DNA of 44,190 nt from a virus: the IMG/VR virus record IMGVR_UViG_3300029911_000063, positions 1 to 44,190 of that record. One strand, given 5' to 3'. The position numbers and the translations under genes are program-made. The stretch's first letter is position 1, and every line of letters starts with the position of its first letter. The notes beneath the pieces are model-generated. The model saw only the letters and a list, made by a program, of their open reading frames with translations, did not search any database and was not told the origin of the DNA. Below are positions 1 to 44,190 of this stretch, piece after piece.

Positions 1-106
1 GGCGTAAACAAGGCTGTGATGGGCACGCCTGATGAAGATGCTGTTTGCGCTACGGAAAGAGTAGCCGTTGGCGAAGCTGTGCCAATCCCTAAACGAAAGT
101 TCGTAT
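1..106. repeat. 106-bp exact direct repeat, left copy
   Basis: Identical to 34553-34658. The match resumes after two mismatches (107-108) and continues to 134 before diverging. It lies in the coding sequence for the shared FRLGIGTASPTATLSVAQ segment of the fibre. Because it starts exactly at base 1, it looks like an assembly-closure overlap, although it is also a true stretch of homology between two fibre alleles. Confidence 0.95.
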
Positions 107-353
107 CGTCCCAAAAGAACTTGGCATTGTCTTGGGCAAGGACACCGGCTGGACCAACAAATAAAACAGAACCCTGTGTCGCACTAGTAATCGTGTCACC
201 AATGGCTAGTGTTAAAGAACCAGTCACGGATAAAAGGAGCCGACCGCTTGAATCAACTTGAACTGGACACACCAAACCAGTCGTTGCATCAACCGCTAAA
301 AGGGTTGGACGTGAGTTTGCATCTCTTGGCGCGTTTCCATCGGGTGCTGCCAT
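1..353 (-). CDS. Tail fibre protein, N-terminal part (cut by window edge)
   Basis: The reading frame opens at 353 (MAAPDGNAPRDANSRP) and runs off the window edge after 117 codons. Residues 1-45 match the N-terminus of the fibre at 31191-32753 (NAPRDxNSRPTLLxVD, then a VQVD/IQVD-xxGRxLLS segment). From about residue 70 (QDNAKFFWDDTNFRLGIGTA) it matches the N-terminus of the fibre at 33004-34800 instead, so this is a mosaic of two fibre types. If base 34552 is joined to base 1, the gene continues in frame to 33004 as a 633-residue protein. The role as an adhesin or fibre is inferred from family resemblance and position at the distal end of the head operon. The start follows the previous stop by 5 nt (TAA-ACTAT-ATG). 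Confidence 0.75.
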   Translation of the reverse strand, partial: MAAPDGNAPRDANSRPTLLAVDATTGLVCPVQVDSSGRLLLSVTGSLTLAIGDTITSATQGSVLFVGPAGVLAQDNAKFFWDDTNFRLGIGTASPTATLSVAQTASSSGVPITALFT

Positions 354-358
354 ATAGT

Positions 359-637
359 TTAGCTAAATGTTCCTAAAAGATTTCCAGTCGAATTTTCAAT
401 CAAACATGCTTGCGTAGTACCGGAAGGATTTTGACCAAGCATTGATCTAACATCATTTGCATCGCTGGCTGCATTCGTTTGAGTTACCGTGATAGACCCA
501 GAAGCCGCTACAATGCTCGCCAATAGATAGCCCGTTGCATGGTCGATTTGAAGTGGAACAACTGTACCGCTGGGATTCACTCCTTTAGCTGGTGGTACGC
601 TGTTCGCATCGGGAGCGAAATTATCTATTTGTGGCAT
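359..637 (-). CDS. Small virion or fibre-associated protein, 92 aa
   Basis: Not assigned to a named family. It seems to hold two copies of a short beta-type module also found at the N-termini of the fibres at 1-353 and 31191-32753: residues about 10-43 (DANSVPP, then PLQIDHATGYLLASI) and about 57-92 (NPSGT, then CLIENSTGNLLGTFS). It overlaps the coiled-coil gene upstream by 17 nt and ends 5 nt before the fibre start, so it is in the same operon. A role as fibre adaptor or base protein is inferred. Module B has a different 114-aa protein (34812-35156) at this position. Confidence 0.65.
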   Translation of the reverse strand: MPQIDNFAPDANSVPPAKGVNPSGTVVPLQIDHATGYLLASIVAASGSITVTQTNAASDANDVRSMLGQNPSGTTQACLIENSTGNLLGTFS

Positions 638-3415: not shown

Positions 3416-4453
3416 TTAGATACCTGCCGAGATCGCGTTGAGCTGGGCGTTATAACGTGGGTTTTTGTAGATCATGTTACCCGCAAGCACTGTGAAACCG
3501 GACATAATCATCTGGTTTACAGGGCGTACAAATTCAGTCCAGTGGAAACCGTATTCACGAGCCAATTCTGGGTCTGGTTCACCATCCATGATATCGGCTT
3601 CGGCAAACTTCACTGGCTTACCTTCTGGCCATTCTGGGAGATATTGAAACTCCATCGACATGTCGTTGATAAACCACATGACGTTCGCAGGAGCGATCAT
3701 ATCAGCCCATACTGACGCATTGTTGAATTGCAACGCTTTGGTACCACCAAGGCCCAAGTTATAGCTGCGTCCCGCGGCGTTCGTTGGGACTTCAAAACGC
3801 ATGATAGGATCAAGCAACTGTTGATAATCCGTGCGCACGGCTGTCGTGGTAAAGATATGATTTACCATTTCGACACCCTGCCAGGTGCTGTCGTAGGTCG
3901 AATACATCTGGGCAAGCGTCAATTTGTTGAGAGTCGCAGCGTTTACCGTCGCATCCAATGCTGGATATGTAGCGCGGGATTGTCCACCGATTGTTGCAAC
4001 CGTGTTACCGTTATCAACACCAGCAGCAAGACCAAGCAAATCTTGACCGTTAGAACCTGCGGCATAGAATTGCGTACCAACAAGCTGCGTCAAGTCGCGT
4101 GTATCGGAACCGATCTGGCGCTCAATCAGGTTAGCCACTTCACCTTCTGTTTGGTTCAGGGCTACATCTGTGTAGTTGAGCGTGGTTGCTTGATATAAGA
4201 ACGCACATTGATAGATAAGTTTGATCGTGTTATCAACTTGCGAGTTGCTCAAAAGCTGGGCGCCAACGAACGAACCTTGGTTGGTATTTTCAGTCCACTT
4301 GAAAGCATAGGCGGCTTGCGAACCTTTCCAGGTCGAGGCTGCACCTTTAGAAATAAAGTGACCGGCGGCAATGTTTCCGACAAGGGCACCTTCAATCAAG
4401 CGTTGATAAAGGAACTCGAGTGTCGAATCTGAGACTTTGTTTGTCAAAGCCAT
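3416..4453 (-). CDS. Major capsid (coat) protein, module A
   Basis: 345 aa, the usual length for an HK97-fold coat protein made with a separate scaffold. It lies directly downstream of the scaffold-like gene (14 nt), in the portal-scaffold-coat order of tailed phages. It aligns with 37933-38982 around GLAAGVDNGNTVATIGGQSR (module B GLAAIVDDGTSVATFGGLSR) and near the C-terminus (both end in a short GxL/GxI-rich tail). No protease domain is seen nearby, so maturation cleavage is not predicted. The start context AAAACTTTATGG has no Shine-Dalgarno sequence, odd for such a highly expressed protein. Confidence 0.88.
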   Translation of the reverse strand: MALTNKVSDSTLEFLYQRLIEGALVGNIAAGHFISKGAASTWKGSQAAYAFKWTENTNQGSFVGAQLLSNSQVDNTIKLIYQCAFLYQATTLNYTDVALNQTEGEVANLIERQIGSDTRDLTQLVGTQFYAAGSNGQDLLGLAAGVDNGNTVATIGGQSRATYPALDATVNAATLNKLTLAQMYSTYDSTWQGVEMVNHIFTTTAVRTDYQQLLDPIMRFEVPTNAAGRSYNLGLGGTKALQFNNASVWADMIAPANVMWFINDMSMEFQYLPEWPEGKPVKFAEADIMDGEPDPELAREYGFHWTEFVRPVNQMIMSGFTVLAGNMIYKNPRYNAQLNAISAGI

Positions 4454-4467: not shown

Positions 4468-5271
4468 CTATCTCTGTGATTTAAGAAATTGAGTGAGAGA
4501 CATATTTCGTACTTGATCTCGTGACAGGAGATTTGGTTTTGGGGATCGTGAAACGACACCCGAACCAGCCATCTTTTTTGCCACTTCGCGGGAAGGATTT
4601 ACTTTAGGTACAGTCGCTTCCTGACGCGTTGCCATGTAGATAGCGAAAGCCTTATCTAAATCGGGAATACGATGACCAAATTCGTTAGGTGATTCCGTGA
4701 GTAGATTTGCTGTTTCAATGATCTTTTTGATCTGCTTAAAATCAGCATTCTTGTCACCATCAGTGAATTTGATACCTGTTTTTTCTTCCCATTCCTTAGT
4801 TTTTTCAGCTTGTAATTCTCGGAATTGAGACAATGATTTTTGTTCATTGGTCTTTTCTTGAATCTCTTGCTGATGTTCAGCTTCCCTAATTTCTTTAGCT
4901 TTTGATGTGATCAGCTTGTTGAGTGAATCAACAGCTTTTGGATCTTTGCCAACGAGATACTCGGCATCGGGGTCTACGGCAGTCGGCTGTGCTGCCTTAG
5001 CACTTTCTGCCAGTTTAGCCTCTAAGTCGGCGATCTTACTTTCAAGAGCTTTGAAGCGAGGGCGTTGATGGTAAGGAATCTTCTCTTTTGGTTCCACTTC
5101 TTCTTTAGTTTGTACGTTGTCCGCGACTTCTGATTCAACAACAGGTTCTGAAACCACTTCCTCGGTCTTTTCAGGCTCTGGTTGTGGTTCTTCTTTTGAT
5201 GGCTTCAAGCTTTCAAAACCATCACTTAACATGTTGTTATTTATTAAATGCGCTGCAATCGAATCTTTCAT
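4468..5271 (-). CDS. Scaffolding protein, module A
   Basis: 267 aa, strongly charged and helical, with a Glu/Pro/Lys-rich acidic N-terminal half (EEPQPEPEKTEEVVSEP), a coiled-coil centre around residues 80-170 (KALESKIADLEAKLAES) and a basic C-terminal end (SRDQVRNMSLTQFLKSQR). Acidic helical proteins with a basic C-terminus just before the coat gene are typical of phage scaffolds, whose basic tail binds coat. Module B has a counterpart at 39001-39780. The start lies in ATTATATGAAAG, the same context as the small peptide frame at 12977; a short hairpin (AGGCC-GAAA-GGCT) precedes it. Confidence 0.82.
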   Translation of the reverse strand: MKDSIAAHLINNNMLSDGFESLKPSKEEPQPEPEKTEEVVSEPVVESEVADNVQTKEEVEPKEKIPYHQRPRFKALESKIADLEAKLAESAKAAQPTAVDPDAEYLVGKDPKAVDSLNKLITSKAKEIREAEHQQEIQEKTNEQKSLSQFRELQAEKTKEWEEKTGIKFTDGDKNADFKQIKKIIETANLLTESPNEFGHRIPDLDKAFAIYMATRQEATVPKVNPSREVAKKMAGSGVVSRSPKPNLLSRDQVRNMSLTQFLKSQR

Positions 5272-5651: not shown

Positions 5652-7541
5652 TTATTGAATAGGCGGCATTGGGACTGGTGCGGCAGGTCCTGGAGGGCCA
5701 GGTGGCGCTGGGGGTGGACCAGGCGGTGCAGCAGGTGGAGGTGGAGCTGCTGGCTGTTGTGGTGCTGCGGGCGCAGGAGCCTGTTGAGGAGCCATGGCTT
5801 GCTGTAACGCTTGCATGGCTTCTGGTGAAAGCGTCGTATACGCTTGCATATAGGCCATGGGGTTTATCTTGAGCAACATGGCTGCCCCTGCGGTTGCTTT
5901 TGGATCGGGATATTCAAGGCGTTCAAGTTCCGTAACAATGTCTATAGACCCAGAGCCAAATAGATCAACTGCTTCGTTGCGTCGCATCAAAGGATTGCGT
6001 GGGAGCATTGAGCCCTCTTCAACAGTGATGTTCAAAATCTTAGTCAAATCAGTCTTTGCAACACCCTCTTCATTTGGCTCATCTTGATAGACGTACATCA
6101 TCTGTGCCATGTAGTTGAAAACGAAATCGACCATTTGCTCGATCTGTTCAACGACAGGAGCCGAGCGCGATGTGTCGTCTTGGTTTTTAATGATCTGACC
6201 ACGCACTGATTCTTCGGAAGCAGTACCGGAAGGCGTAACACCACGAATCCCGAAGATGTTCTGAATCTCTAAACGTTTATCTTGAATATCCTCGACGATA
6301 TACGCTGGTAACGCAGGAGCTTGAAATCGCTGCACAACCTTTGTAATGTCGTCACCTGGTGCCCTGATAGCTCCACCACGTTTTAACGCAGCTACGGCTT
6401 GTGTAGCTTGATCCTGATCCATCTTGTTAGAGAATACCCAACCGTTATTTGAATCGTCGGCATTCTTGTCGATCTGTTTGGTGCGCTTGTTTAACAAGTC
6501 TTGCATCGAGATTGATTGTTCAATGAACGAAGTGAAGTCAAACGGTCGCTCACCATCATTGAAGAACCACATGAAGCTAAATGGCATTTCAGGATGAATG
6601 AAATGGTTAGCTCCAAGAACTTGTTGTGTCTCGCCAGTCTCCTCTCCATCATCACCTTTAATTGGTTCATCGTAACCATAATTCCAGTGAGGATTCTTAT
6701 TCTTATCCAAGATATGCCCGCGCATCTCCCAAAAGACATATTCAGAAGTCCACCACTCACGAAAGCCTAGTACGGTACCTAATTTTCCACCGCATGCACG
6801 TGTGAGCCATTCCTTCTGCTCTGGGAAACGCACGATCAGGTTTTCACCTGAATCAAACACGTATTGACCGATGTAACGACCTGTAAACTTGCCACCATCA
6901 AACGTTCCTTTAGGATCAATAATAAGTTTCTTTGGATCAACCTTTTCAACGTTGATTGATAAAGTCTTTTGATTCCACGTAACTTTTAGCACTCCGAGTA
7001 AGTCAATCAACCAGTCTCGCACCGCGGACCGGACTTTAACGCGTAAATGTACTTTGTCTGATACGTCTTCAAGACTACGACCTACAGCGTCGGCTAAAGC
7101 AATACCTGTATCTGTATCATCAGTCTCTACGTTTGGTTCAGGGTCTTCACGGGCTACCATCGGTAACAACGTTTCAACGGCTTGGAAGATTGCGTTATCT
7201 ACAATTCCATACCCATCACCATTGCCTGTGTGACCATTGCTCATTCCGTAATGTTCACCTTTGTAGTATTTGAAGTTCCTTGAAGAACGCATCTTTACTT
7301 CCGCGTAGTAACCAGCAAACTCAGAAGTCCATGTAGAAGTGAGTGTTGATAACTCCTCGTCAGTCATCTCCAAACTAAGAACATCCTCGGGTGAGGTGAT
7401 GCGCCCTTCTGTTTGGTTATCAATAGCTTTCTTTGTTTTGTTGAAAGGTGCGAAAAGACCACCCACTTGGTCAATAATGCCCTTAAGTGCAGGGTTGATT
7501 CCACCTGTCTCTGATCGTTTGCGACCGATGCCTGAAGCCAT
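5652..7541 (-). CDS. Portal protein, module A
   Basis: 629 aa, within the range of large portals of short-tailed phages. Portals form the dodecameric ring through which the terminase packages DNA. It aligns with the module B portal (39949-41835) in many segments: the DNAIFQAVETLLPMVAREDPEP region (B: DNTLWEALETFIPFSSARNPDP), the PHWNYGYDEP motif (B: PHWNYDIPPD), and EEGSMLPRNPLMRRNEAVDLF (B: KEGSMIPQDPMSRRNEAVELF). The last 50 residues are almost only Pro, Ala, Gly and Gln with Gly-Pro-Pro triplets, probably an unstructured tail. A terminator-like hairpin with a U tract ends 2 nt before the start codon. Confidence 0.88.
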   Translation of the reverse strand: MASGIGRKRSETGGINPALKGIIDQVGGLFAPFNKTKKAIDNQTEGRITSPEDVLSLEMTDEELSTLTSTWTSEFAGYYAEVKMRSSRNFKYYKGEHYGMSNGHTGNGDGYGIVDNAIFQAVETLLPMVAREDPEPNVETDDTDTGIALADAVGRSLEDVSDKVHLRVKVRSAVRDWLIDLLGVLKVTWNQKTLSINVEKVDPKKLIIDPKGTFDGGKFTGRYIGQYVFDSGENLIVRFPEQKEWLTRACGGKLGTVLGFREWWTSEYVFWEMRGHILDKNKNPHWNYGYDEPIKGDDGEETGETQQVLGANHFIHPEMPFSFMWFFNDGERPFDFTSFIEQSISMQDLLNKRTKQIDKNADDSNNGWVFSNKMDQDQATQAVAALKRGGAIRAPGDDITKVVQRFQAPALPAYIVEDIQDKRLEIQNIFGIRGVTPSGTASEESVRGQIIKNQDDTSRSAPVVEQIEQMVDFVFNYMAQMMYVYQDEPNEEGVAKTDLTKILNITVEEGSMLPRNPLMRRNEAVDLFGSGSIDIVTELERLEYPDPKATAGAAMLLKINPMAYMQAYTTLSPEAMQALQQAMAPQQAPAPAAPQQPAAPPPPAAPPGPPPAPPGPPGPAAPVPMPPIQ

Positions 7542-7616: not shown

Positions 7617-7796
7617 CTAAACTTTTGGATGTGTCAAATATAAATGTTTCTCGCATTTAGAATAGTTACCCAAATCATCAAAGTGAGCGACAAAACTTCC
7701 CTGTGTCATATCAAATAATCCGTCCTGCGCGAAAGCAATGATCTTATCAAAATGCATATCACAATAAGCGTGAAATGCTTCTGAACTAGATGTCAC
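7617..7796 (-). CDS. Small protein between TerL and portal, 59 aa
   Basis: The chosen GTG start at 7796 overlaps the TerL stop by 11 nt; an in-frame ATG at 7859 would overlap TerL by 74 nt. The shorter form resembles the module B protein at 41900-42097 in length, position and a shared segment (FDMTQGSFVAHFDDLGNYSKCEKH against FDIAEGSVTIHYDSAGCIKKLERK, similar though not identical). Function unknown. Conservation between two otherwise diverged modules argues that it is a real gene with a packaging- or portal-related role. Confidence 0.6.
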   Translation of the reverse strand: MTSSSEAFHAYCDMHFDKIIAFAQDGLFDMTQGSFVAHFDDLGNYSKCEKHLYLTHPKV

Positions 7797-9405
7797 GCCA
7801 ATCCCTGTCCCGTTCAGGACGACGGTTATTGATCCCAACCCAAGAGGTTTTTCCATCATAAGATGTTATTGGCGCTTGAGGGATTGAATTCCAATCAAAC
7901 GCATTAGGATCAACAAAGTTTCCGCCGTCTTTGAATCCAAACTTGTCCATTCCCACGCGAAAATAGACGAGTGCGTGGACGAGGTGATCTGGCCCGTTTC
8001 GTTGCCATACATATTGCTTTACACCTAACTTATCCTCTTCTTCTGTTCGGTAAATGTTAGCAAAGTGCAGCCAAACTTGTTGCCAGTCCTCTCGTGTGCC
8101 GTAGATCGGAATGCGCTTGGCACTAAACTCATCAATCAACATCTGAATCGTCCTGTTGCGGTCTACAACTACTTTGCCGTACTCGCTTCCTTCTCCCCAT
8201 TGAATGAGCTGTTGGGTTTTTCTGTCTCGCCTGTAGTAAGTGAGAAACACGCGGCCATTATATCGCTCTTGCAACTCTCTAATGCCGATAAGGTCGCCTC
8301 CCTGATCGCTAACCAGGATAGATTTAGGCCAGCGTTTGAGGAGCCGTTCAAGCTCATCATAAGACTCGCAAGATCCCCAATGGAACACTCCGTCTTTATT
8401 TCCACAGACGTACCAAATTGGGAGTCCGGTATCAACACCAATAACAACGGGATCTTCTTCGGTGTGTTGCTCATAATCCTTAAGGTTTTGGAAAAGCTTA
8501 TCCTCAGTCATCTTGCTGCCGCTTCCAACGAACGGTTGGCCTAAGACGAAGTTGCTAAAATTCTCGGCTGTCATCGTCCTGTGGGCTTCAATGATCTCTG
8601 CCGCACTTACCGAAGGAACCATGAGCTGGCTGATCCAGTAACCACTATATTTTGGCTTTACTTCAAATTTTCTGGCATGCCACTCTCCGTGACGTCTATC
8701 GTTATCTGATATTTCTTGCCCACAAGCTGCACATATAAATCTTTTCTGTTGTTGATCCACGTTATTTGGCCATTGAAGAAACTGTTGCTTTTTGCAAAAT
8801 CCACAAGTAACAAACCAATGCTTTTGATCGCTTTCCTGCCAGAATCTATGAACTCCGTTTCCTTCAAAAGAAGGGTTACTAAATCGCCATTGCCACTTCT
8901 TTTTCGAGTGTTGGAGGCGCGAGACATATTGGTCAATTACGGGTTGATTAGACCGATCTTCTTCATCGTGAATGTTTAGATCGCTTGAGAATGATAGGGC
9001 TGCGCGTTCAGTCCAGGTACCACGCAAGTAGACTGTATTTTGTCCTATACGCTTCTGTTCAACACTGTCCTTATCTCCGCTTATCCAACTCTGTAAAACA
9101 GGATTTTCATTGACAATAGGATCGAGTTTACCGCTCACCAGATCATGCGCATCAGTAACTGTAGGCATTGTATATACTGCGTTGATTCCAAAGTTCTTTA
9201 CTGCCCACAACATCTTGAGAAGAAACGTTGTCGTCTTACCACACTGGGCAGCTGCTAGAACAACTTGGAAGGGTGACCAGTCTTTCAGGATGTCCCAAAG
9301 ATAAGGGTGTTCATTTAGATCAAAAGGCTTACCATTCTCTGTCTTGATTTGGTTTGAGTTTATCCAGGCGATAATACTTTGATTTTCAGCATCTTTGAGA
9401 TTCAT
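7786..9405 (-). CDS. Terminase large subunit, module A (GpA-like)
   Basis: 539 aa. DNA-packaging ATPase/nuclease of the lambda GpA-like group. Walker A-like motif at residues 51-59 (AAAQCGKTT), a Walker B-like LNIHDEED at 143-150, and a zinc-binding insert with C201-x2-C204 and C225-x2-C228. C-terminal nuclease half has candidate acidic residues in VIGVDTG (about residue 324) and LVSDQGGD (about 367). The start overlaps the upstream stop in ATGA, so it is translationally coupled. The homologue at 42099-43736 shares the same layout. Confidence 0.92.
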   Translation of the reverse strand: MNLKDAENQSIIAWINSNQIKTENGKPFDLNEHPYLWDILKDWSPFQVVLAAAQCGKTTTFLLKMLWAVKNFGINAVYTMPTVTDAHDLVSGKLDPIVNENPVLQSWISGDKDSVEQKRIGQNTVYLRGTWTERAALSFSSDLNIHDEEDRSNQPVIDQYVSRLQHSKKKWQWRFSNPSFEGNGVHRFWQESDQKHWFVTCGFCKKQQFLQWPNNVDQQQKRFICAACGQEISDNDRRHGEWHARKFEVKPKYSGYWISQLMVPSVSAAEIIEAHRTMTAENFSNFVLGQPFVGSGSKMTEDKLFQNLKDYEQHTEEDPVVIGVDTGLPIWYVCGNKDGVFHWGSCESYDELERLLKRWPKSILVSDQGGDLIGIRELQERYNGRVFLTYYRRDRKTQQLIQWGEGSEYGKVVVDRNRTIQMLIDEFSAKRIPIYGTREDWQQVWLHFANIYRTEEEDKLGVKQYVWQRNGPDHLVHALVYFRVGMDKFGFKDGGNFVDPNAFDWNSIPQAPITSYDGKTSWVGINNRRPERDRDWRDI

Positions 9406-10552: not shown

Positions 10553-12440
<1,888 letters not shown>

Positions 12441-16256: not shown

Positions 16257-16257
16257 T

Positions 16258-17016: not shown

Positions 17017-17017
17017 T

Positions 17018-17776: not shown

Positions 17777-17780
17777 TAAT

Positions 17781-18005: not shown

Positions 18006-18038
18006 CCCCTTTGGCCGCCATCCTAACGAATCCTGAAT

Positions 18039-18382: not shown

Positions 18383-18384
18383 AT

Positions 18385-18594: not shown

Positions 18595-18596
18595 GT

Positions 18597-18895: not shown

Positions 18896-18906
18896 CCATC
18901 CCTGGT

Positions 18907-19254: not shown

Positions 19255-19255
19255 T

Positions 19256-19974: not shown

Positions 19975-19975
19975 T

Positions 19976-34800: not shown

Positions 34801-34811
34801 ACGGGGATGTG

Positions 34812-35156
34812 TTAGGAGTTAAGCGTCAAATCTTGTGCGTACCAAACAGAACCACTTACCTGTTGAGAAGCCGACAAGTTGAGGACGAAATTGGAGCCAT
34901 CTGCGAGAACAAACGGGCAGTGATCGCACGAATCATGTTCCCATCCCATATTGGATGTGAAGTCCATCACGTCCATTATTTTTGTCGCTCCGTTGTACAG
35001 CGTGATGTTGTTGCTTACATTGCAAAACAAGGTAATCCGATGGATACGGATCGTCTTTCCAGCAACGCCCGTGATGATGGTGTTGTTGCCAGACGTAGCA
35101 ATCGAGATGTCCGCGCGGATAATCTCGCCTTTGTGTCGAAGAAGTTCTTGGGACAT
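34812..35156 (-). CDS. Small virion protein of module B, 114 aa
   Basis: Beta-rich protein with an EIIRADISIATSGNNTII core, a TIRIHRITLFCNVSNNITLYNG segment and a Cys pair (CDHC) at about residue 78; ends in a SVWYAQDLTLNS strand. It replaces the unrelated 92-aa module A protein at the same position. Similar small beta-rich proteins cap fibres or heads in phages; role unproven. Starts TAA-AAT-ATG. Confidence 0.6.
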   Translation of the reverse strand: MSQELLRHKGEIIRADISIATSGNNTIITGVAGKTIRIHRITLFCNVSNNITLYNGATKIMDVMDFTSNMGWEHDSCDHCPFVLADGSNFVLNLSASQQVSGSVWYAQDLTLNS

Positions 35157-35159
35157 ATT

Positions 35160-35354
35160 TTAGGATAAATCTCTCCGCTTGTTCCGTAAGTCAGTAACGT
35201 CGTTGATGAGGCTCTGATGTTCGTCGCGCAGTTTATTCACGTCCTTGATGAGTTTGGCGATCTCCGATTGAAGTTTCGCTTTCATTTGGGTCAAGGTTGC
35301 AAGTTGTTCCTGCTGCGCTTTTCGTAGGTCGCTCTTTTGAAAGAGCTTCATCAT
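35160..35354 (-). CDS. Short coiled-coil protein of module B, 64 aa
   Basis: MMKLFQKSDLRKAQQEQLATL then heptads with Leu/Ile (LQSEIAKLIKDVNKLRDEH). The N-terminus is similar to module A's 240-aa protein at 621-1343, of which this looks like a short form. Its start overlaps the upstream stop (TATGATG). Function unknown. Confidence 0.65.
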   Translation of the reverse strand: MMKLFQKSDLRKAQQEQLATLTQMKAKLQSEIAKLIKDVNKLRDEHQSLINDVTDLRNKRRDLS

Positions 35355-35815
35355 ACGGCGGCTTCAGTTACGGGAGCGGGAGGAGTGTATTTAGGGCAGC
35401 CTTTTTTGTGTCGAACGCCCTTTGAATCGCATGTGTCGCAGAAAGGAGCTTTGCCCTTAATGCTGGAGCTTGGCTGATCTGGCTGCGGCAAGTGCGGAGG
35501 CACTGGCTTGTTCTTGTTCAAAAGCTCCGTGGTCATTTGGTTCTGGTCAACCTCCTCGGAATCATCTTGCTGGAAGATAATCTTGGCATAGATTTCAGCG
35601 CGCACAGGTACGCTATTCGTGCGAATCTGTTTCTCGGCATCTTTGACGCCAATGTTCATGTGGTTGATCTCGTCGTCGATCAGGTGCTTGGCAAAGTGTT
35701 CTGCCAACCAATCCTCCAAAAAGATTTCCTGGTGAGGTTTGAAGGTGTAACTGACGCTGTTCCACTGCCAGGTAAAGGTACGATCCGTGAAGTTCTTGAA
35801 CAAGACGCTTTTCAT
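35351..35815 (-). CDS. Head accessory protein with Cys-rich tail, module B, 154 aa
   Basis: Core similar to module A's 1354-1920 (NFTDRTFTWQWNSVSYTFKP; LAEHFAKHLIDDEI). The C-terminus has FCDTCDSKGVRHKKGCPKY, a C-x2-C-x9-C arrangement that could bind zinc, in place of the AT-hook-like tail of module A. Both tails suggest nucleic-acid or protein contact at the head vertex. A hairpin (35858-35880) precedes this gene. Confidence 0.65.
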   Translation of the reverse strand: MKSVLFKNFTDRTFTWQWNSVSYTFKPHQEIFLEDWLAEHFAKHLIDDEINHMNIGVKDAEKQIRTNSVPVRAEIYAKIIFQQDDSEEVDQNQMTTELLNKNKPVPPHLPQPDQPSSSIKGKAPFCDTCDSKGVRHKKGCPKYTPPAPVTEAAV

Positions 35816-35857
35816 AAGGGTTTGGCGGTGGATGAGTTCCGCTATTTGACATCCGAC

Positions 35858-35880
35858 GGGGCTGTTTTAGGCACAGCCCC
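35858..35880 (-). other. GC-rich hairpin between 35898-36623 and 35351-35815
   Basis: GGGGCTGT/ACAGCCCC with a 7-nt loop, in an 82-nt gap in the leftward operon. There is no U tract after it in transcript direction, so it may be an mRNA processing or stability element rather than a terminator. Confidence 0.5.
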
Positions 35881-35897
35881 GATAAGCCTTTGAACAA

Positions 35898-36623
35898 TTA
35901 GATGTTCAAGAAAACCAAGTTGTACTTCGTTGTCACGCCCGTTTGAGCGGCCATGCCGATCTGAACGGTCGTCGCAGCCACCGTCATCACAGCACCAGCG
36001 GTGTTGGTTGAAGGGGAAACGCCGAGGCCGACGGTCGTACCAGCATCGTTCAAGACAGCGATCAAACCTTTCGTCTGGAGGAAGCCGAAATCTGTCGCAG
36101 CGACAGGATAAAGAGCCACACCAGCAACGGCGTTGGTTGCGGTCGTAGGATAGATGATGGTGTTCGCGTACAAGTTCGGCATCAAGCTGATGCGCGAGGT
36201 CGTGTCGAGCGTCGTGATCACAGGATCTTCAATCGTGATGACCACCGTACCAGTCGTGGTGGACTGGGCCGTGTTGGTTTTCACGAAGAAGGTTTGACCA
36301 GCACCCGTGCCGTCGTTCACGAAGCAATAGCCGTTCGCGTATTGACCGAGTGTCGAGGCGGTGCCGCCGAGCGTTGCGCTGATGGATTGACCACCAGTGA
36401 CAGTGAACGGTGTGACGCAAACCATGTTTTGGTGGTTGGCGACGACAGCCGCGCCTTGATAGACCTTACCTGGAACCCAGGCGGTCGCGCCGACTTGGGC
36501 GTAAACGAACTCGCGACCGTCCGTTGAACGGATACGATCACCGAGGTTCGCACCTTGTGTGGTGTTGTCCGAGAAGGCCAGATCAGGCGCGGTGACCATT
36601 CCTGGACAGAGTTTTGTAGCCAT
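35898..36623 (-). CDS. Coat-associated virion protein (decoration-like), module B, 241 aa
   Basis: The start at 36623 (MATKLCPGMVTAPDLAFS) is preferred to an in-frame ATG at 36662, which lies inside the upstream gene. It is homologous to module A's 2021-2776 (shared REFVYAQ, PGKVYQG and QYANGY segments), with higher GC. Two genes downstream of coat, in the same order. Function inferred as capsid surface or vertex protein. Confidence 0.75.
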   Translation of the reverse strand: MATKLCPGMVTAPDLAFSDNTTQGANLGDRIRSTDGREFVYAQVGATAWVPGKVYQGAAVVANHQNMVCVTPFTVTGGQSISATLGGTASTLGQYANGYCFVNDGTGAGQTFFVKTNTAQSTTTGTVVITIEDPVITTLDTTSRISLMPNLYANTIIYPTTATNAVAGVALYPVAATDFGFLQTKGLIAVLNDAGTTVGLGVSPSTNTAGAVMTVAATTVQIGMAAQTGVTTKYNLVFLNI

Positions 36624-36642
36624 AAAATAGGGCTTAGATGAT

Positions 36643-37224
36643 TTATGTAATCGGTGTGGCAAGCGTACCAGAGGCGGCGACCAAACCTGTTACGTTCCAC
36701 ACGGTCGCGGAGATGGCCGTGAACGTGAGCGTGGTCCCGATCAATCCACCCGTCGTTGAACCGTTCATCGAGAGGGTGTAGTTGCTCGTTCCGTTTGCGA
36801 AGAACGCTTTGGTAGTAGCCGATGCGCTGATAAGCGATTGAACCGCGCCTGAAAGAAAGATGCTTGACTGGACTGCTGTGACGCTGTGCGCGTTGGAGGT
36901 AACCGACACGCTCACAATGAACGTGAAGATCATCCCCGCAACAGGCGTCGTCGGTAGCGTATACGCGATACCCGTCGCAGCATCCATCAAGAATACCTGA
37001 CCGCTTTGGGCGGCCGTGAGCGCAACGGTCGCGCCACCAGAGGCGTTGACTGCGCCTGGAACACCGAGCACGCCGCCAATCGTCGTACCAGCGGGAAGCG
37101 TGGTCGCACCCGTAACAGCGAGCGTGCCCGTAACAGCGAGCGTGCCGCCGAGTACCACGTTCTTGTTCGTGTTGAGCCCCTGGTACTTCACCAGAGGCAA
37201 AGCATCTTCGAGTAACATCGACAT
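36643..37224 (-). CDS. Coat-associated virion protein, module B, 193 aa
   Basis: Homologous to module A's 2797-3384 (MSMLLEDALPL; ALTAAQSGQVFLMDAATG; NGTSNYTLSMNGSTTGGLIG). Beta-rich, Ala/Thr/Gly composition. Includes a short duplicated segment (TLAVTGTLAVTGATTLPAG). In module A this gene directly follows coat; here a homing endonuclease gene separates them. Confidence 0.75.
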   Translation of the reverse strand: MSMLLEDALPLVKYQGLNTNKNVVLGGTLAVTGTLAVTGATTLPAGTTIGGVLGVPGAVNASGGATVALTAAQSGQVFLMDAATGIAYTLPTTPVAGMIFTFIVSVSVTSNAHSVTAVQSSIFLSGAVQSLISASATTKAFFANGTSNYTLSMNGSTTGGLIGTTLTFTAISATVWNVTGLVAASGTLATPIT

Positions 37225-37264
37225 AATCTTGTAGACCCTCCCCCGTAAACGGGGTCAAAGGTGA

Positions 37265-37888
37265 TTATTTTTTCTTAGAAGACCAGAATCGTTTAGAACG
37301 TAGTTCACTCACTCGTTTCGCCTGCCAGTCTTTCATTTCGGGACGATCCCAATGTTCGTGGCTATGCGTCGACTGAGTAAGCAGTTCAAGATTTTCTGGT
37401 CGATTATCGTCTTTGAATCCATTGATGTGGTGAACAACCTCATGCTCTTCGAGCAATCTTCCAAGTTTTGTTTCCATCACAAGGCGATGTTCTCGAACAT
37501 ATCCATTCGCTAATGCGTTCGGATGATCTGGCTGTCTCACATAAACGTATCCATCTTTGCTTAAGACCTTTCCGCCTTTCCAAACATTGTTTCCGTTTCC
37601 AGTTCCATGATTGAGAGTCTGAATGACTTTCAAACGATGTTCCTCGGTTAGTTTCTTCCCAAGATGAGCCTGACGCAGCTTTTCTTTGGTTTCTATCGAA
37701 TGATGATAACCAAGCCGTGAAAATGGAATCCCTTTAGTTGAGAACGGACGAGCCTTTACTCCGAGCTTTTTCAATCGGCGCGAGATTGACTTTGCGTCGC
37801 AGCCGAATTGCTTACCGAGGACTGTCATTGACTTTCCTTCGGCGTATTCCTTGACGAGCTGATCTTCGTTGAGAGATGTGGGTTTCAT
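37265..37888 (-). CDS. Free-standing HNH homing endonuclease
   Basis: 207 aa. N-terminal helix-turn-helix (MTVLGKQFGCDAKSISRRLKKLG, residues 21-43), then a NUMOD3-type stretch (ETKEKLRQAHLGKKLTEEH, 66-84) and an HNH nuclease core (EHRLVMET at 133-140, HHINGFKDDNRPENLELL at 153-170). It interrupts the conserved coat to 36643-37224 junction, which is intact in module A (31 nt apart), so it is a mobile insertion between genes. A promoter-like pair (TTGACG, then GAATAT after 17 nt) lies in its 44-nt upstream gap. It should cut alleles that lack it. Confidence 0.88.
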   Translation of the reverse strand: MKPTSLNEDQLVKEYAEGKSMTVLGKQFGCDAKSISRRLKKLGVKARPFSTKGIPFSRLGYHHSIETKEKLRQAHLGKKLTEEHRLKVIQTLNHGTGNGNNVWKGGKVLSKDGYVYVRQPDHPNALANGYVREHRLVMETKLGRLLEEHEVVHHINGFKDDNRPENLELLTQSTHSHEHWDRPEMKDWQAKRVSELRSKRFWSSKKK

Positions 37889-37932
37889 AGGCCACTATAT
37901 TCTCACTTCTGATCTACACCGTCAAGCAATTT

Positions 37933-38982
37933 TTACACACCTGTCACGCCTGTCAAAACGCCCTGGCGCAACGGGTTGTCGCAGCAGAGTTCGCCACCGA
38001 GGTAAATGTGACCGACGACAGCAGCGGCATCCGAAGGCTTGATCCAGCCGCTCCATGAGAAGCCGAGGCCCAGCACGTTCGAGTAATCGTTGCCTTCGAT
38101 GTCAACGGACTTGTACTTAATGGCTTCCGTCATCGCCATCGGGAGCGCGCGCCACTCAATGAAGTTTTCGTTCAAGAAGTAGAGGTTGCCGACCGTACAC
38201 TTTTCATCAGCCAAGATCGCGAAGCCCTTATAGTCCAAGCCAGTGAAGCCTGTACCACCGATGAAGCCCGACTGGGAGTTCAAGCCCTTGTTGTCGTTCT
38301 TCATGTTAGCTGGCGTCTTGTTGATGCGTTCTTGCGGCTGGAGAAGCTGTTCGTACAAAGCCCAGGTCGCGGGATCGGTCACACCGACAGTCGGCTTGAT
38401 CGTGCCAGAGGTCACGGCGTTGTAGAGCGTCGCCATTTTCGGCAAGGACAGTGTGCCGCCCGAAGCCGTTTTGGTTGCTTTGATGGTTGGGAAAGTCGTG
38501 CGGGACAATCCACCGAACGTCGCAACGGAAGTACCGTCATCGACGATCGCAGCGAGACCCAAAGGATCTTTGTTTCCGTTGCCCGTGCCATCGAGATAGA
38601 ACAAGCCACCGACCGAATCGGCCATGTCTTGTGCGGCACCCTTCACTTCGATCGCAGCGAGGTCGATGATCTGATCATCCGTCGCGTTGGCGGACAATTC
38701 ATCAAGCGGCAAGGCGACCGAGATTTGATAGAAAGCAGGATCGAAGGCCAAGAGCTGGCGGTTGTTCGTGGCGGACGTGGAGAACGTATCCATGCCTGCG
38801 AACGAGGTTCCCGTGCTGTTCTTAGAGACTTTCACTGGGTACTTCATTTGGTTACCGCTCCACTTTTTCGCGCGCGATACAGTGCGTGTGAAGAACACGT
38901 TGCTTTTAAGCACAGTGTCAACCACGAAAGGCATCAGCTTGAAACGTGTGGTAGTGGTAACTCGATTGCCTAATGTAGCCAT
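37933..38982 (-). CDS. Major capsid (coat) protein, module B
   Basis: 349 aa. Aligns with the module A coat in the GLAAIVDDGTSVATFGGLSR segment and in general length and order. N-terminus (MATLGNRVTTTTRFKLMPF) differs from module A, as expected for diverged coats. HK97-type fold is inferred. It lies 18 nt downstream of the scaffold-like gene and is more GC-rich than its module A counterpart. Confidence 0.86.
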   Translation of the reverse strand: MATLGNRVTTTTRFKLMPFVVDTVLKSNVFFTRTVSRAKKWSGNQMKYPVKVSKNSTGTSFAGMDTFSTSATNNRQLLAFDPAFYQISVALPLDELSANATDDQIIDLAAIEVKGAAQDMADSVGGLFYLDGTGNGNKDPLGLAAIVDDGTSVATFGGLSRTTFPTIKATKTASGGTLSLPKMATLYNAVTSGTIKPTVGVTDPATWALYEQLLQPQERINKTPANMKNDNKGLNSQSGFIGGTGFTGLDYKGFAILADEKCTVGNLYFLNENFIEWRALPMAMTEAIKYKSVDIEGNDYSNVLGLGFSWSGWIKPSDAAAVVGHIYLGGELCCDNPLRQGVLTGVTGV

Positions 38983-39000
38983 AGAGTTGAATGAGTGAGA

Positions 39001-39780
39001 TTAAAACAGGTCGGTTACGTCTTTTCCTGCGAAGTCCGCAGCGGTCATGTAGTCTTTTTCACCGCTTCCATCACCGCCGCTGTGCGAGGGTGACAGTGAA
39101 TTGGCGAAGGACTTGCGCGCACCCATGCGGGCTGCGTTGGAATTGCCGTTGATTTTTTCCATCAGCGTCAGACCCTTGGCCAGATCGTAGTTTCCGTCTT
39201 GATCCATGACTGGATTTTCGAGCATAAACTTCGCGAGTTCCTGGCGTTGCTCTGGGGTTTTGATACGCCCGCTTTCTTCAAGCGCGGCATACTGATCGTC
39301 GATGAAATCATTAGCTTCTTCAGTTGCTCGCTGCTCCGCAAGTCGTGGAGCCTCTTGTTCGCGAACCAATTCTTCCTTCACGCGCTGACGTTCAGACGCT
39401 TGATGGGCTTGGTATGCGTCCCAAGCGGCCTTGTCGCCTCCAAACCATGCTGGCACCGCCTGATCAGTGCTGGCGGCTGGTGCGGCGGCTTGCGTAGCTT
39501 TACGCTCCTGCTCTTCCTTGAAGGCAAGAAGTTCTTCGTTCTGGCGTAACAGTTCGCGATTGCGGCGCGCAACTTCGCGCAAGCGACCAACTGGTACTTT
39601 GTGCGATTCCGCACTCTTAGGATCAGTGACTTCGCCAGGAGTATTCTCGCCCTCCTGCGATGGCTCGTCTTCCTCTGATTCTTTGTCCGCTAGCGGGGCG
39701 GGAGGAGTTGTCATCTCCTCTGTCTGCTCGACAAACGGATCTTCACCGTCGGTCGGCAGGCTCGCTAAAAAGTCTGACAC
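39001..39780 (-). CDS. Scaffolding protein, module B
   Basis: 259 aa. Acidic, Pro/Glu-rich first 60 residues (PFVEQTEEMTTPPAPLADKE), a long coiled coil (VGRLREVARRNRELLRQNEE) around 60-150, then a short C-terminal domain with basic and acidic residues (KDYMTAADFAGKDVTDLF). Same place and layout as module A's scaffold, with limited sequence similarity. Assembles the coat shell and is normally lost from the mature head. Confidence 0.8.
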   Translation of the reverse strand: MSDFLASLPTDGEDPFVEQTEEMTTPPAPLADKESEEDEPSQEGENTPGEVTDPKSAESHKVPVGRLREVARRNRELLRQNEELLAFKEEQERKATQAAAPAASTDQAVPAWFGGDKAAWDAYQAHQASERQRVKEELVREQEAPRLAEQRATEEANDFIDDQYAALEESGRIKTPEQRQELAKFMLENPVMDQDGNYDLAKGLTLMEKINGNSNAARMGARKSFANSLSPSHSGGDGSGEKDYMTAADFAGKDVTDLF

Positions 39781-39808
39781 AAGGTTTTTGGTTTAATTGT
39801 GAATGAAA

Positions 39809-39943
39809 TTACTTACCTGGCATCGGCTGTGGCGCGGCGGCGGCAGCCTTCAACGCGTCGGCTTGATAGCCCAGTTTCGACTTTTTCTTTTTCTTCATCG
39901 GCATCTTTCCTTTCGGCATAGCTGCGGGCGGGGGAAAAGGCAT
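39809..39943 (-). CDS. Lys-rich small protein after portal, 44 aa
   Basis: MPFPPPAAMPKGKMPMKKKKK then an Ala/Pro-rich tail. A second frame of identical length (ATG 39947 to stop 39813, also 44 aa) overlaps it almost fully. The Lys-rich, Pro/Met form fits better with known short phage head peptides, and is preferred. Its module A counterpart by position is acidic (5359-5643). Function unknown. Confidence 0.45.
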   Translation of the reverse strand: MPFPPPAAMPKGKMPMKKKKKSKLGYQADALKAAAAAPQPMPGK

Positions 39944-39948
39944 ACATC

Positions 39949-41835
39949 TTAGGCTAAGGGGTTATTAGAGGCTCCGAGCGCAGGCATCGGGCCTGCTGGA
40001 GGTGCTGGGGCTTGTTGCGGTGGCGGTAGACCCGCTGGGGAACCAGGCGGCGCACCAGGGACACCAGGCGGTGCTGGCGGCGCGGCTGGCCCACCCGCAG
40101 GTGATACCTGACCAGAATCATCTGGCTTCTGTGGCTGATTCAATTCTGGGAAGAGCGAAGCAGGATTTGATTTCCACAGATACAAGTTCTTCGCGGCCTC
40201 GCGTGGGTTCGGGTAATCGAGGCGTTCAAACAGCGTGATAGGATCGAGCGCACCAGCCGAGAACAATTCCACGGCTTCGTTGCGGCGCGACATCGGATCT
40301 TGCGGGATCATCGAACCTTCCTTGATCGTGACGCGGATGCGGCGGTTCAGATCCGACTTCTTCAGCTCGACGTACTCGACGGCGTTTTCCTTCCCGATGA
40401 TCGAAGCAGTGTGATCCTCGGAGTAGTAGACGTAGAAGAGTTGAACCCACCAGTTGTAAATGTTGTCGGCTGCCTGTTCGATGAAGGCTGTGACACCCCC
40501 ACCGATTCGATCCAATTCCTGCGAGCGCGCGGCTGCTTGACCCTTCTGCGTCTTGGAATCGCCTTGAGCAGCTTGACCACCCGACAAGACTTTCGTTCCA
40601 AATATGCCTTTGAGTTCGTTGCGATAGTCCAGGAGTGTTTGATAGACCATCGGAGCCAACTCTGGGGCTGCTAGGCGTGCGATGGCTTTATTCACGTCAC
40701 CGCTTGGAACCCAGATCGTGTTGCCCTTGCGGACGGCTCCAGCGACGCTGTATGCCTGCTCCTTGGTGAACACGTCGCCCGACACTGCCAAACCATTGTT
40801 GGTATTCTGCGCGTTCTTGCGGATCTGTTTGTTCAGTTCGTTGATGTTCTTTTGGTTTGGAATCGCTTGCTCGAACATGTTCGTATCGTCCACTGGATGC
40901 TTGCCCAAGTTGAAGACCGACAGGAAGATGAACGGCATTTTGCGCTGCTGGAAGTGGTTCAACCCACGGCGCAAGGCTTTCGGACTGACACCTGGAATGT
41001 TCGGATCAGGCGGGATGTCGTAGTTCCAGTGAGGATTGCGGCCTTTGGAAAGGACTTTCTTCTTCAACGTCGAGAACGTCATGTCGGGCGTCCACCACTC
41101 GATGAAGCCGATCTCAGTTGCATCGTTGTCCTTTGATTCCGTGTCGATTTCCTTGGCCATCGACTTGAACATGCGCTTCATGTCGCCTGCCGTTTCCTTG
41201 CGGTGAATGCCGAGGTACCCGCCCGTGTACTCGCCTTTCTCGTCGATCGTGGCATCAGGGTCGAGGATCATCACCTGTGGACGTTTGACGACCGTCTTGA
41301 TGTCGTCCGACTGCTCTGACCAACCGACCTGCACCACACCGAGGAAGTACATAGCCCAGTAGCGCGTGAGACGCGACAGGCTGATTTTGAGCGACTGACG
41401 ATCGGCCTGGAAGCGGAGGAACTGGGCCACCTTGTCCGCGAGATCAATGCCGTCAGGCGTGTTGTCCGTCGTCACGACTGGATCAGGATTGCGCGCCGAT
41501 GAGAACGGGATGAAGGTTTCGAGAGCTTCCCAAAGCGTGTTGTCCGCCATTGGATCGTTCTTCACCATGTCGTCGATGTTGTTGTTGAACGCCTTGCCCA
41601 ACCAGTATTCATCCGAGGCTTTGCGACGCTTCTGAAGGCCAGAATCAAAATCCTTCCAGCGATCCTCCCAAGTTTTCGCTGATTTCAAAAGATCAGCGTC
41701 ATTGGTGTCTGTTTGTAATTCAGGAAGAGAAGGCGTGAGTGGGCCTTCCATCGTTTCCAGTTTTTCGGGATTCTCAACCTTGTTGATATCTTGGCCAAGG
41801 GAGAAGAATCCATCGAGTAAATCAGGAGAACCCAT
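39949..41835 (-). CDS. Portal protein, module B
   Basis: 628 aa, one residue shorter than the module A portal and clearly homologous (segments described there). Contains the PHWNYDIPPD and EGSMIPQDPMSRRNEAVELF regions and a C-terminal Pro/Ala/Gly tail (PAAPPAPPGVPGAPPGSPAG) with collagen-like Gly-x-x triplets. The start lies 2 nt after a U tract (see 41838-41882). Confidence 0.88.
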   Translation of the reverse strand: MGSPDLLDGFFSLGQDINKVENPEKLETMEGPLTPSLPELQTDTNDADLLKSAKTWEDRWKDFDSGLQKRRKASDEYWLGKAFNNNIDDMVKNDPMADNTLWEALETFIPFSSARNPDPVVTTDNTPDGIDLADKVAQFLRFQADRQSLKISLSRLTRYWAMYFLGVVQVGWSEQSDDIKTVVKRPQVMILDPDATIDEKGEYTGGYLGIHRKETAGDMKRMFKSMAKEIDTESKDNDATEIGFIEWWTPDMTFSTLKKKVLSKGRNPHWNYDIPPDPNIPGVSPKALRRGLNHFQQRKMPFIFLSVFNLGKHPVDDTNMFEQAIPNQKNINELNKQIRKNAQNTNNGLAVSGDVFTKEQAYSVAGAVRKGNTIWVPSGDVNKAIARLAAPELAPMVYQTLLDYRNELKGIFGTKVLSGGQAAQGDSKTQKGQAAARSQELDRIGGGVTAFIEQAADNIYNWWVQLFYVYYSEDHTASIIGKENAVEYVELKKSDLNRRIRVTIKEGSMIPQDPMSRRNEAVELFSAGALDPITLFERLDYPNPREAAKNLYLWKSNPASLFPELNQPQKPDDSGQVSPAGGPAAPPAPPGVPGAPPGSPAGLPPPQQAPAPPAGPMPALGASNNPLA

Positions 41836-41837
41836 AC

Positions 41838-41882
41838 AAAAAGGCGAGACACCAAAGAATAAATTCTTGAAGGTATCCCGCC
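41838..41882 (-). terminator. Hairpin plus U tract directly before portal start (module B)
   Basis: On the minus strand an 11-bp stem (GGCGGGATACC / GGTGTCTCGCC, two G-U pairs) with an inner AAGAAT/ATTCTT stem is followed by TTTTT, GT and the portal ATG. It matches the element before the module A portal in form and place although stem sequences differ. Confidence 0.7.
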
Positions 41883-41899
41883 GCTGTATAGGTAGGGAA

Positions 41900-42097
41900 T
41901 CAGGAGCAACCGAGTACGGCTAAGTTGTCTTTACGTTCCAATTTCTTGATACAACCCGCGCTATCATAGTGGATTGTAACACTTCCTTCCGCTATGTCAA
42001 AAGCACCCGAAGCAATCAAGATGTTTGCCAGGTCAATGTACCGCTGGATCTTGGTGTCAGCCGATACGATCTGGATTGAAAGCAGGGTGGGTGGCAT
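41900..42097 (-). CDS. Small protein between TerL and portal, module B, 65 aa
   Basis: The start at 42097 follows the TerL stop as TGA-T-ATG; an ATG at 42106 lies within TerL. Similar in size and in its GAFDIAEGSVTIHYDSAG segment to module A's 7617-7796 (GLFDMTQGSFVAHFDDLG). Not recognised otherwise; probably involved in packaging or portal assembly. Confidence 0.6.
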   Translation of the reverse strand: MPPTLLSIQIVSADTKIQRYIDLANILIASGAFDIAEGSVTIHYDSAGCIKKLERKDNLAVLGCS

Positions 42098-42098
42098 A

Positions 42099-43736
42099 TC
42101 AATCATCGGTTACCTCGTCCTCGTCTGGAAACGCTGGCGATGGCGCGTGCGTCTTGCCGAAGATGAGCGATGGCGACGGTCGAAGCTCGGTTGAGTCCTC
42201 GCCTGATGACATGAACGAGGCTTGACCCTTCTGCCCGTATTTCTCCATGCCGACGCGCCACAGCACCGTTGCGTGCGCCCAGTGATCCATGCCGTTTGAA
42301 GAGAGCCACTGGAAGATGTCGTTGGCCCGCGAATCCTTGCCGTTGACCTTGTAGAGCGTGCGCCAGTGTTTGATGTAATCCTCCCAATCCATCAGGTTGC
42401 CTTGAAGCGGGATGCGGCGCGTCAGGAACTCGTCAATCACTAACTGGATCATCGGGTTACGATCCGAGGCCACGGAGCCGAAGTCTTGTTTCTCACCCCA
42501 TTTTATAAGATTGAAGTTCTTCTTGTCGCGTGCGTAGTGGTTCAGAAACACTCGACCAGGGAACTTCTCACGCAACTCGCGCGGCCCTGTGATGTCAGGG
42601 GCACCATCGACGATCAGAACAGCAGTTGAATCGTTGCGAAGATATTGCTCGATCGTCTTCCAGCTTTCCGTCACGCCGTAGAAGTAAAGTCCCTCGGAGT
42701 TGCCCATGACGTAGTGCTTCTTGACGCCACTATCGCAGCCGATGATTGTTCCCTTCTGCGAGTTGACCTGGAGCGTCATGTTGCGCGTGAAGATGTCGTC
42801 GCTGATCGACGAACCATCCACAGCGTATGGCAGACCGAGAACCGATCCCCAAAAGTATTCGTGTCCCTTGGTGTTGAAGTATCCCAGGATCTCGCGTGCC
42901 GTGACCCAGGGAGCCATCATCAGGCTCATGTGGTAGCCAGACCATTCACCAACAGCTGTGGGCTTCCAGACGCCAACCCGACGTGTCTCACGGGTGATCT
43001 CGGCGTCACAACCGAGACATTGGTAACACTCGCGCACCTTGTCGATGGATTCAGGCCAGCGAAGATACTGCTCCTCACCACACTCGGGGCAGGTGATGAA
43101 CCATTCTTTCTTGTCCGAGAGTTCCCACGCAACGGAGCCAGCCGCACCCATGTTGCGAGGGTTGGTGAACTGCCACTTGCCTTTGTACTTGGACTGCTGA
43201 AGGCGTGAGTCCAGCTTCTCGATGTTCTCCTGGCTCGACGCGTCGAGTTCGTCGTTGACGTTCAGATCCGACGTGGTGATGAGCGTGTCGGCCAGCGTGT
43301 TGGTTCCCTGGTAGTTGACCATGTTATCCCCAACCTGCTTCTGTTCGAGCGTGTCTGATGTTTTGATGTACTTCTGAAGCTCTGGGTTGTTTTCGATGAT
43401 GCGGTTGACCTTGGAGCGAACGAAGCCGTACATCGCATCCATCGTCGGCAGTGTGTAGATGATCTCAAACCTTTTATACTTTGCGGCCCACAGAGTCTTG
43501 ATGATCATCAGCGTTGAGAAGCCGAGCTGCGCTGCCTTCAGCACGATCTGAAGCGACGACCAATCATCAGCGATATCAAAAAGAAAAAGATGGTCGCGCC
43601 AATCGAGCGATTCACCTTTCTCGTTCTTCACGTTGTAGAGATCAAGCCAAATGGAAAACTCCAACGTCGTCAGGTCGATGAGATCCTGCTTAGTTGGACT
43701 TGACGTATTTTGTTCGGACGTTGGTTTTGATCCCAT
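42099..43736 (-). CDS. Terminase large subunit, module B (GpA-like)
   Basis: 545 aa from ATG 43736 (MGSKPTSEQN); an ATG at 43775 is also in frame, and TerS overlaps it. Walker A-like region at residues 67-75 reads KAAQLGFST and lacks the lysine present in module A (AAAQCGKTT); Walker B-like LNVNDELD at 158-165; zinc insert C216-x2-C219 and C237/C240/C243; nuclease candidate acidic residues in IIGCDSG and LIVDGAPD. Otherwise aligns with module A TerL throughout. The altered Walker A is compatible with GpA-type terminases, where the lysine is placed differently. Confidence 0.9.
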   Translation of the reverse strand: MGSKPTSEQNTSSPTKQDLIDLTTLEFSIWLDLYNVKNEKGESLDWRDHLFLFDIADDWSSLQIVLKAAQLGFSTLMIIKTLWAAKYKRFEIIYTLPTMDAMYGFVRSKVNRIIENNPELQKYIKTSDTLEQKQVGDNMVNYQGTNTLADTLITTSDLNVNDELDASSQENIEKLDSRLQQSKYKGKWQFTNPRNMGAAGSVAWELSDKKEWFITCPECGEEQYLRWPESIDKVRECYQCLGCDAEITRETRRVGVWKPTAVGEWSGYHMSLMMAPWVTAREILGYFNTKGHEYFWGSVLGLPYAVDGSSISDDIFTRNMTLQVNSQKGTIIGCDSGVKKHYVMGNSEGLYFYGVTESWKTIEQYLRNDSTAVLIVDGAPDITGPRELREKFPGRVFLNHYARDKKNFNLIKWGEKQDFGSVASDRNPMIQLVIDEFLTRRIPLQGNLMDWEDYIKHWRTLYKVNGKDSRANDIFQWLSSNGMDHWAHATVLWRVGMEKYGQKGQASFMSSGEDSTELRPSPSLIFGKTHAPSPAFPDEDEVTDD

Positions 43737-44103
43737 GTGAGAGGAGAGCCAATTCTTCCAAACGAGCCTGATCAATGTTCACTTGAAGCACTTCAGCCTT
43801 AATGGGCGCGTATGTCCCATGAACCTTGAAAGTCATGTCAGCAGCCGTCAAACGATCTCGCGCTTTCTCTTCCACATTGGTAAGGATCTCGCTCACAACT
43901 CCCTTGGCAGTTTCAGGATCGAAGCCAAGTATTCTCATTTCCTCTTGGACGCCTTTTGCGGCTATCACACGGCCAGGTGTTGCTTTCGCTGTCGTTTCGT
44001 CGTAGCCAGCTGAAACCAGCATTGTGTCTAACCTGTCGTAATCCCCATTAGACACTGCCTCGACGAGTTTCTTAGCAAGCCGTTTCTGTCGCAAAGTGGC
44101 CAT
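43690..44103 (-). CDS. Terminase small subunit candidate, module B, 137 aa
   Basis: Starts MATLRQKRLAKKLVEAV and has a GYDETTAKATPGRVIAAKGVQEE segment typical of a helical DNA-binding small terminase family with the T-P-G-x-V..K-G-V-Q-E pattern. It overlaps the TerL start by 47 nt, so they are tightly coupled, unlike in module A. Unrelated to module A's TerS, so the packaging-site specificity probably differs. Assignment is from order and pattern. Confidence 0.7.
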   Translation of the reverse strand: MATLRQKRLAKKLVEAVSNGDYDRLDTMLVSAGYDETTAKATPGRVIAAKGVQEEMRILGFDPETAKGVVSEILTNVEEKARDRLTAADMTFKVHGTYAPIKAEVLQVNIDQARLEELALLSHGIKTNVRTKYVKSN

Positions 44104-44109
44104 ATCTCA

Positions 44110-44190
44110 TCATAATAGCTCGTTACCCTCCTGTTTAGCCAGTTTCGTTGCGAATGGATCGGTGGGAGATCCGTAAACCTTCTCAAACAA
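44110..44190 (-). CDS. Partial gene at the right edge, C-terminal 26 codons
   Basis: A frame entering from the right end (LFEKVYGSPTDPFATKLAKQ, then EGNELL and stop at 44110-44112), 6 nt before TerS. Too short to assign. In module A the gene before TerS is unrelated. Confidence 0.4.
   Translation of the reverse strand: MFEKVYGSPTDPFATKLAKQEGNELL

Follow-up and report, generated by a model that had tools for sequence, protein, structure and literature searches.

Two head modules in a 44-kb viral contig most likely reflect an assembly chimera of two phages that share part of a fibre gene

Introduction

The IMG/VR virus record IMGVR_UViG_3300029911_000063 (positions 1–44,190, the whole of which was analyzed and is referred to in the following as the window) carries two sets of phage head genes. 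This raises the question of whether one phage possesses two head modules, or whether two genomes have been joined in one contig. A previous sequence-only reading had left both options standing: either assembly had run past the closure of a 34,552-bp phage into a related strain through shared fibre sequence, or a single replicon carried both modules. Judged from comparisons with other IMG/VR records, the presence of two head modules most likely results from misassembly and is not a real feature. The phages that make up the first and last parts of the window are referred to as phage A and phage B, respectively.

Phage A is complete at 34,552 bp

When the window was compared with itself, positions 1–106 matched positions 34,553–34,658 exactly, and the match extended to 134 bp at 98.5% identity. 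The first 106 bp are thus a second copy of 34,553–34,658, which forms the right end of a 431-bp run (34,228–34,658) that is identical in phages A and B. We also considered the 106 bp as the terminal repeat of a linear genome, but rejected this, as the match stops at position 34,659, the point of divergence between A and B, and other records continue across this site. Joining position 34,552 to position 1 kept a fibre frame open across the join (1902 nt, 633 aa); the portion at 3–353 on the minus strand encodes the N-terminus of the phage A fibre, and the gene continues at 34,552.

An independent contig, IMG/VR 3300030508_000050 (34,418 bp, hereafter G005), starts at position 19,879 of the proposed circle and ends at 19,744. 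It read through the 34,552-to-1 join and showed two differences from circle A in 34,418 bp, while the 134 bp of the 34,552-bp circle that are absent from G005 were found in the window. The two contigs are rotations of one circle, of which positions 1–34,552 of the window make up one full turn. Because G005 is the same circle cut elsewhere and crosses the join, we conclude that the phage A genome is closed, with a length of 34,552 bp, and since each contig spans the other's ends, the genome is either a circle or circularly permuted. The rotation evidence fits a physical circle, a concatemer or permuted linear ends alike. The exact repeat, the restored fibre frame and the closed circle had all been proposed from the sequence alone, and all three held.

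The main frames picked in this analysis lie on the minus strand up to position 14,659, on the plus strand from 15,537 to 21,682 and on the minus strand again from 22,175. This strand order gives one divergent and one convergent region, in agreement with the earlier description. A 12-pair stem with a T-rich tail was located at 21,684–21,711 (one terminator-like site, with 0.3 expected). The divergent region contained five promoter-like sites against a shuffle mean of 2.2 (sd 1.5), a count to which we give no evidential weight. A tRNA scan found none.

The head module of phage A includes, on the minus strand, genes for the major head protein (3416–4453; phrog_9953, E 1.4e-22), the portal protein (5652–7541; phrog_156, E 1.1e-9) and the terminase large subunit, TerL (7786–9405; phrog_675 terminase family, E 1.2e-91). 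A protein at 4468–5271 is placed in the scaffold position by its place in the module. The terminase small subunit (12,474–12,902, minus strand; phrog_309, E 1.7e-12) is separated from TerL by GroEL (10,553–12,139) and GroES (12,141–12,440) genes on the same strand. On the plus strand, phage A encodes a RecT-like annealing protein (15,537–16,256), recognized also in Pfam, and an exonuclease (16,228–17,016), followed at 20,913–21,682 by a weakly matching NinB/Orf-like gene (E 0.0014) and a NinG/Rap-like gene (E 3.6e-15). No convincing integrase was found among the scanned proteins; there was one marginal match (E 0.0049), to the scaffold-position protein at 4468–5271.

The last part of the window belongs to a different phage

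Phage B was found alone in IMG/VR 3300029953_000096 (G011), a contig of 35,775 bp. Over positions 34,228–44,190 the window had 0 differences in 9963 bp from G011, and the same was true against a second record, 3300029986_000023 (G003). Positions 34,659–44,190 accordingly comprise the fibre N-terminus and head module of phage B, cut by the window end. In phage B itself, the fibre frame has a length of 445 aa. As had been reported, GC content is higher in this part, at 52.9% for 34,659–44,190 versus 45.7% for circle A.

The B head module encodes, on the minus strand, an HNH endonuclease adjoining the coat gene (37,265–37,888; phrog_20891, E 4.7e-29), the major head protein (37,933–38,982; phrog_9953, E 8.8e-49), the portal protein (39,949–41,835; phrog_156, E 5.4e-9) and TerL (42,099–43,775; phrog_675, E 1.5e-60), with a protein at 39,001–39,780 in the scaffold position. 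The two modules thus agree in gene types and gene order, and TerL, portal and head protein fall in the same three families in both. Amino acid identity between A and B is 38% for TerL, 32% for portal and 27% for the major head protein. Two small genes of the module are 37% and 52% identical, and a third is weakly similar (25% over 59 aa). The earlier statement that the modules repeat gene for gene holds for these six genes, with the third small gene as a weak case, but not for the rest: the two scaffold-position proteins did not match each other at E 0.1, the HNH endonuclease of B matched none of the module A frames in the comparison, and no match to the GroEL and GroES of A was listed among the G011 frames of at least 70 aa.

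On these comparisons, the head modules are two distant modules, not alleles. Most of the larger B frames beyond the head module and the shared segments had no match in A at E 1e-4, and at the DNA level A and B could be aligned only over certain regions, including three near-identical segments in the same order. The terms "allele" and "related strain" used in the first description therefore understate the distance, since with a TerL at 38% identity and DNA alignment confined to those regions, B is a different phage.

Phages A and B meet in an identical stretch of the fibre gene

The nearest differences between A and B around the fibre run are at 34,227 on the left and 34,659 on the right, leaving 431 bp (34,228–34,658) identical. 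The window carries A alleles at 34,209, 34,210 and 34,227, and B alleles from 34,659 onwards, so the change from A to B takes place inside this run. Altogether, there are 31 distinct exact runs of at least 25 bp between A and B, the longest being the 431-bp run, followed by runs of 388 (19,618–20,005), 328 (21,246–21,573), 155 and 147 bp; two others, of 127 bp (20,931–21,057) and 108 bp (21,137–21,244), are truncated where G011 ends and may together form a single run of at most 314 bp. The 388-bp run lies in the second shared segment (19,562–20,315, 92% identity), and the 328-bp run lies in the third, inside the NinG/Rap-like gene region; the NinG/Rap-like gene of phage A falls inside this third segment. 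Beside the second segment, at 19,997–20,241, there are imperfect internal repeats, 86–90% alike, which have another arrangement in B.

As a consequence of the switch, the window contains a 598-aa fibre frame (33,004–34,800, minus strand) with a B N-terminus on an A body, as opposed to the 633 aa and 445 aa of the separate phages. This frame is probably an artefact, since A on the left and B on the right of the run were seen together in the window only. In a DNA comparison with 50,697 phage records, the fibre had no match.

Our interpretation, held with very high confidence, is that the window is a chimera, consisting of a complete phage A and part of phage B that assembly has linked at the common 431-bp run. 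In this scenario, the assembler would have started inside the fibre sequence that is exact in two co-occurring phages, made one circuit of phage A (34,552 bp), reached the shared sequence again and left it on the B side, adding 9.5 kb of the B head module. We infer that the same picture would emerge from the sequencing reads of the window's own sample. Among the points against this scheme, only 106 bp of the shared run lie at the start of the window, a length that is not accounted for by graph assembly with k = 127.

Comparable products are described in excerpts from Roux et al. 2017 (PMC5610896), where chimeric contigs occurred in each simulated virome assembly, usually as <5% of contigs of at least 10 kb. 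Like the window, these joined two genomes at a region of high similarity; the window differs in also holding a complete circular genome. Repeat regions can likewise yield chimeric contigs, and mosaic phage genomes are hard to assemble, according to the corresponding parts of the Phables paper (PMC10563150).

Other records carry the two phages separately

IMG/VR was scanned with two pieces of the 431-bp run, which yielded five records besides the window. The complete run was present at five places in four of these, with its nearest flanks being A on both sides in G001, G003 and G005 and B on both sides in G003 and G011. The fifth record, G008, ends within the run and has the B side only. The A–B junction was found at 0 of the 5 other places and thus in the window only, within IMG/VR scans that may omit records very near the window's genome, so that a second A–B record could be hidden. 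The picture is otherwise that expected of a chimera: each part has been assembled separately elsewhere (A in G005, B in G011), and the join falls within sequence common to both genomes. Of the two explanations offered at the outset, these records support assembly past closure through the shared fibre sequence, and the flanks and the separate A and B records leave the two-module replicon unsupported.

In its fullest form, the latter would place A and B, joined via the repeated fibre segment, on a single molecule of about 70 kb, whether a cointegrate or a phage naturally equipped with two head modules. There are two TerL genes both in the window and in the 56,139-bp G003, and the three near-identical segments occur in the same order in A and B, as such a replicon might predict. 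It is contradicted for G005, which represents A alone round the circle, and for G011, which represents B alone, and the nearest flanks at all five other places, A–A or B–B, also speak against it. Furthermore, G003 starts with the A fibre, continues as A to the 328-bp run, follows B for most of the circle and returns to A after the 388-bp run. The junctions of the two double contigs therefore lie in different shared runs, and not at one common place. We consider such a replicon highly improbable.

We then followed A and B alleles by 31-mer painting across twelve records (the window and G001–G011). There were six changes between A and B in five of the twelve, four of them in the three longest runs: in the 431-bp run in the window, in the 328- and 388-bp runs in G003, in the 388-bp run in G008, in the 147-bp run in G006 and in a 56-bp run in G001. 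This count omits two patches, at base 18,848 (window versus G003, G004, G005 and G006) and near 20,006–20,023 in G004. G006 is A up to the end of the 147-bp run, followed by 26 bases of B. In G008, B gives way to A inside the 388-bp run. Since the change in this run is seen in two samples, those of G003 and G008, some B phages may naturally carry an A segment, and the B-to-A version at the 388-bp run may be a natural variant of B. In the region corresponding to window positions 19,618–21,057, both records (loci L010 and L011) are B with A's version of about 1 kb, where the stretch in G011 differs and is longer.

The fibre of G001 (locus L024), compared over window positions 33,600–34,690, has B alleles up to 34,029 and A alleles from 34,086, changing in the 56-bp run at 34,030–34,085; it is 98.8% identical to the window in the fibre. 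The A–A flanks of G001 thus apply only near the 431-bp run, and farther left the record is B. This mixed fibre could have arisen by true recombination or by the merging of an assembly bubble. It is one point in favour of another possibility, that the window contains a real hybrid phage with B head genes and an A fibre body, generated by recombination in the shared run and present as a minority beside A and B. The fibre segment has evidently been exchanged at some point, with 17 differences in 938 positions (33,749–34,686) between phages that are otherwise far apart. No other fetched record has the junction, though, and the window holds a complete A circle, which is unexpected for a hybrid with B head genes; there is very little chance that this explanation is correct.

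The ends of the records also bear on assembly. G005 ends 127 bp within the 388-bp run from both sides, as would be expected if a graph assembler using k = 127 had met a branch there. G011 ends 127 and 108 bp within shared sequence, so that only one of its ends fits this k. In total, for 10 of the 24 ends of the twelve records, the terminal 30-mer occurred in both A and B. With record ends sitting in shared sequence, the samples cannot be called free of the other phage. We had considered sample 3300030508 as a case of A without B, two B protein scans having found no B gene there, but dropped this because G005 breaks within a B-shared run; B-like sequence is probably present in that sample, too. 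The A TerL was found at 100% identity at six IMG/VR loci, and the eight loci found with the B TerL comprised six at 100% and two at 47%. The two TerLs occurred together in samples 3300030688 and 3300037278, on separate contigs, and in 3300029986, on one contig.

For users of this record, neither a double-module phage of 44 kb nor its 598-aa fibre frame most likely exists as such. The genuine genomes would measure 34,552 bp and about 36 kb, and this pair also produced the other double contig, of 56 kb.

The shared fibre segment probably reflects recent exchange

With only 17 of 938 positions differing in the fibre and alignment elsewhere restricted to certain regions, recent exchange is the plain reading, and the shared fibre segment was probably acquired by homologous recombination. 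The shared segments would have arisen in this way, and phage A carries fitting tools in its RecT-like, exonuclease, NinG/Rap-like and, weakly, NinB/Orf-like genes. Excerpts from De Paepe et al. 2014 (PMC3945230) describe how Rad52-like recombinases, with contributions from orf and rap, make phage mosaics. The resemblance lies in distant phages with near-identical segments and in the set of RecT-like, (weak) NinB/Orf-like and NinG/Rap-like genes in A. The phages in those excerpts differ in being E. coli phages with exchange involving temperate phages, whereas the exchange between A and B is deduced from sequence and no convincing integrase was seen among the scanned proteins.

A stronger version is that the 431-bp run is a live exchange point, at which phages only 27–38% alike in coat, portal and terminase swap the fibre body, and that the A–B join of the window or G001 represents real hybrids. 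We regard this as unlikely. The identical 431-bp fibre piece and two more long pieces that are likewise identical, one of them in the NinG/Rap-like gene, in distant phages that co-occur make recent exchange testable.

Relatives of the two TerL proteins

With a profile built from four TerLs, we searched 20 records, namely the 16 longest (23–40 kb) of 74 other loci, which came from 80 kept of 467 relatives found, together with the window, G003, G005 and G011. Two full-length TerLs were present in two of the 20, the window and G003, and each of the 16 more distant records had one, although some of these may be fragments. This is a weaker point against the replicon of about 70 kb. Among 50,697 named phage records, no match to the A and B TerLs reached 60% identity, and those listed, 20 per protein, were at about 22–26%. 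Related TerLs at six loci (L035–L040) were in bins assigned to Ignavibacteriae, an uncultured bacterium, Parcubacteria, Woesearchaeota, Bacillota and Nanoarchaeota; these are probably phage contigs binned by chance, naming no host.

In G016, two TerL pieces turned out to be one frame split by an intein-like insert. The TerL of a relative at L054 (10,010–12,511) is an 833-aa frame, the C-terminal half of which matches Hint above the cut-off and an intein-splicing domain below it, pointing to an intein-like insert. The TerL of a 40-kb relative (L052, G015:11,070–12,626) has one in-frame TGA, representing a sequencing error, a broken gene or a recoded stop.
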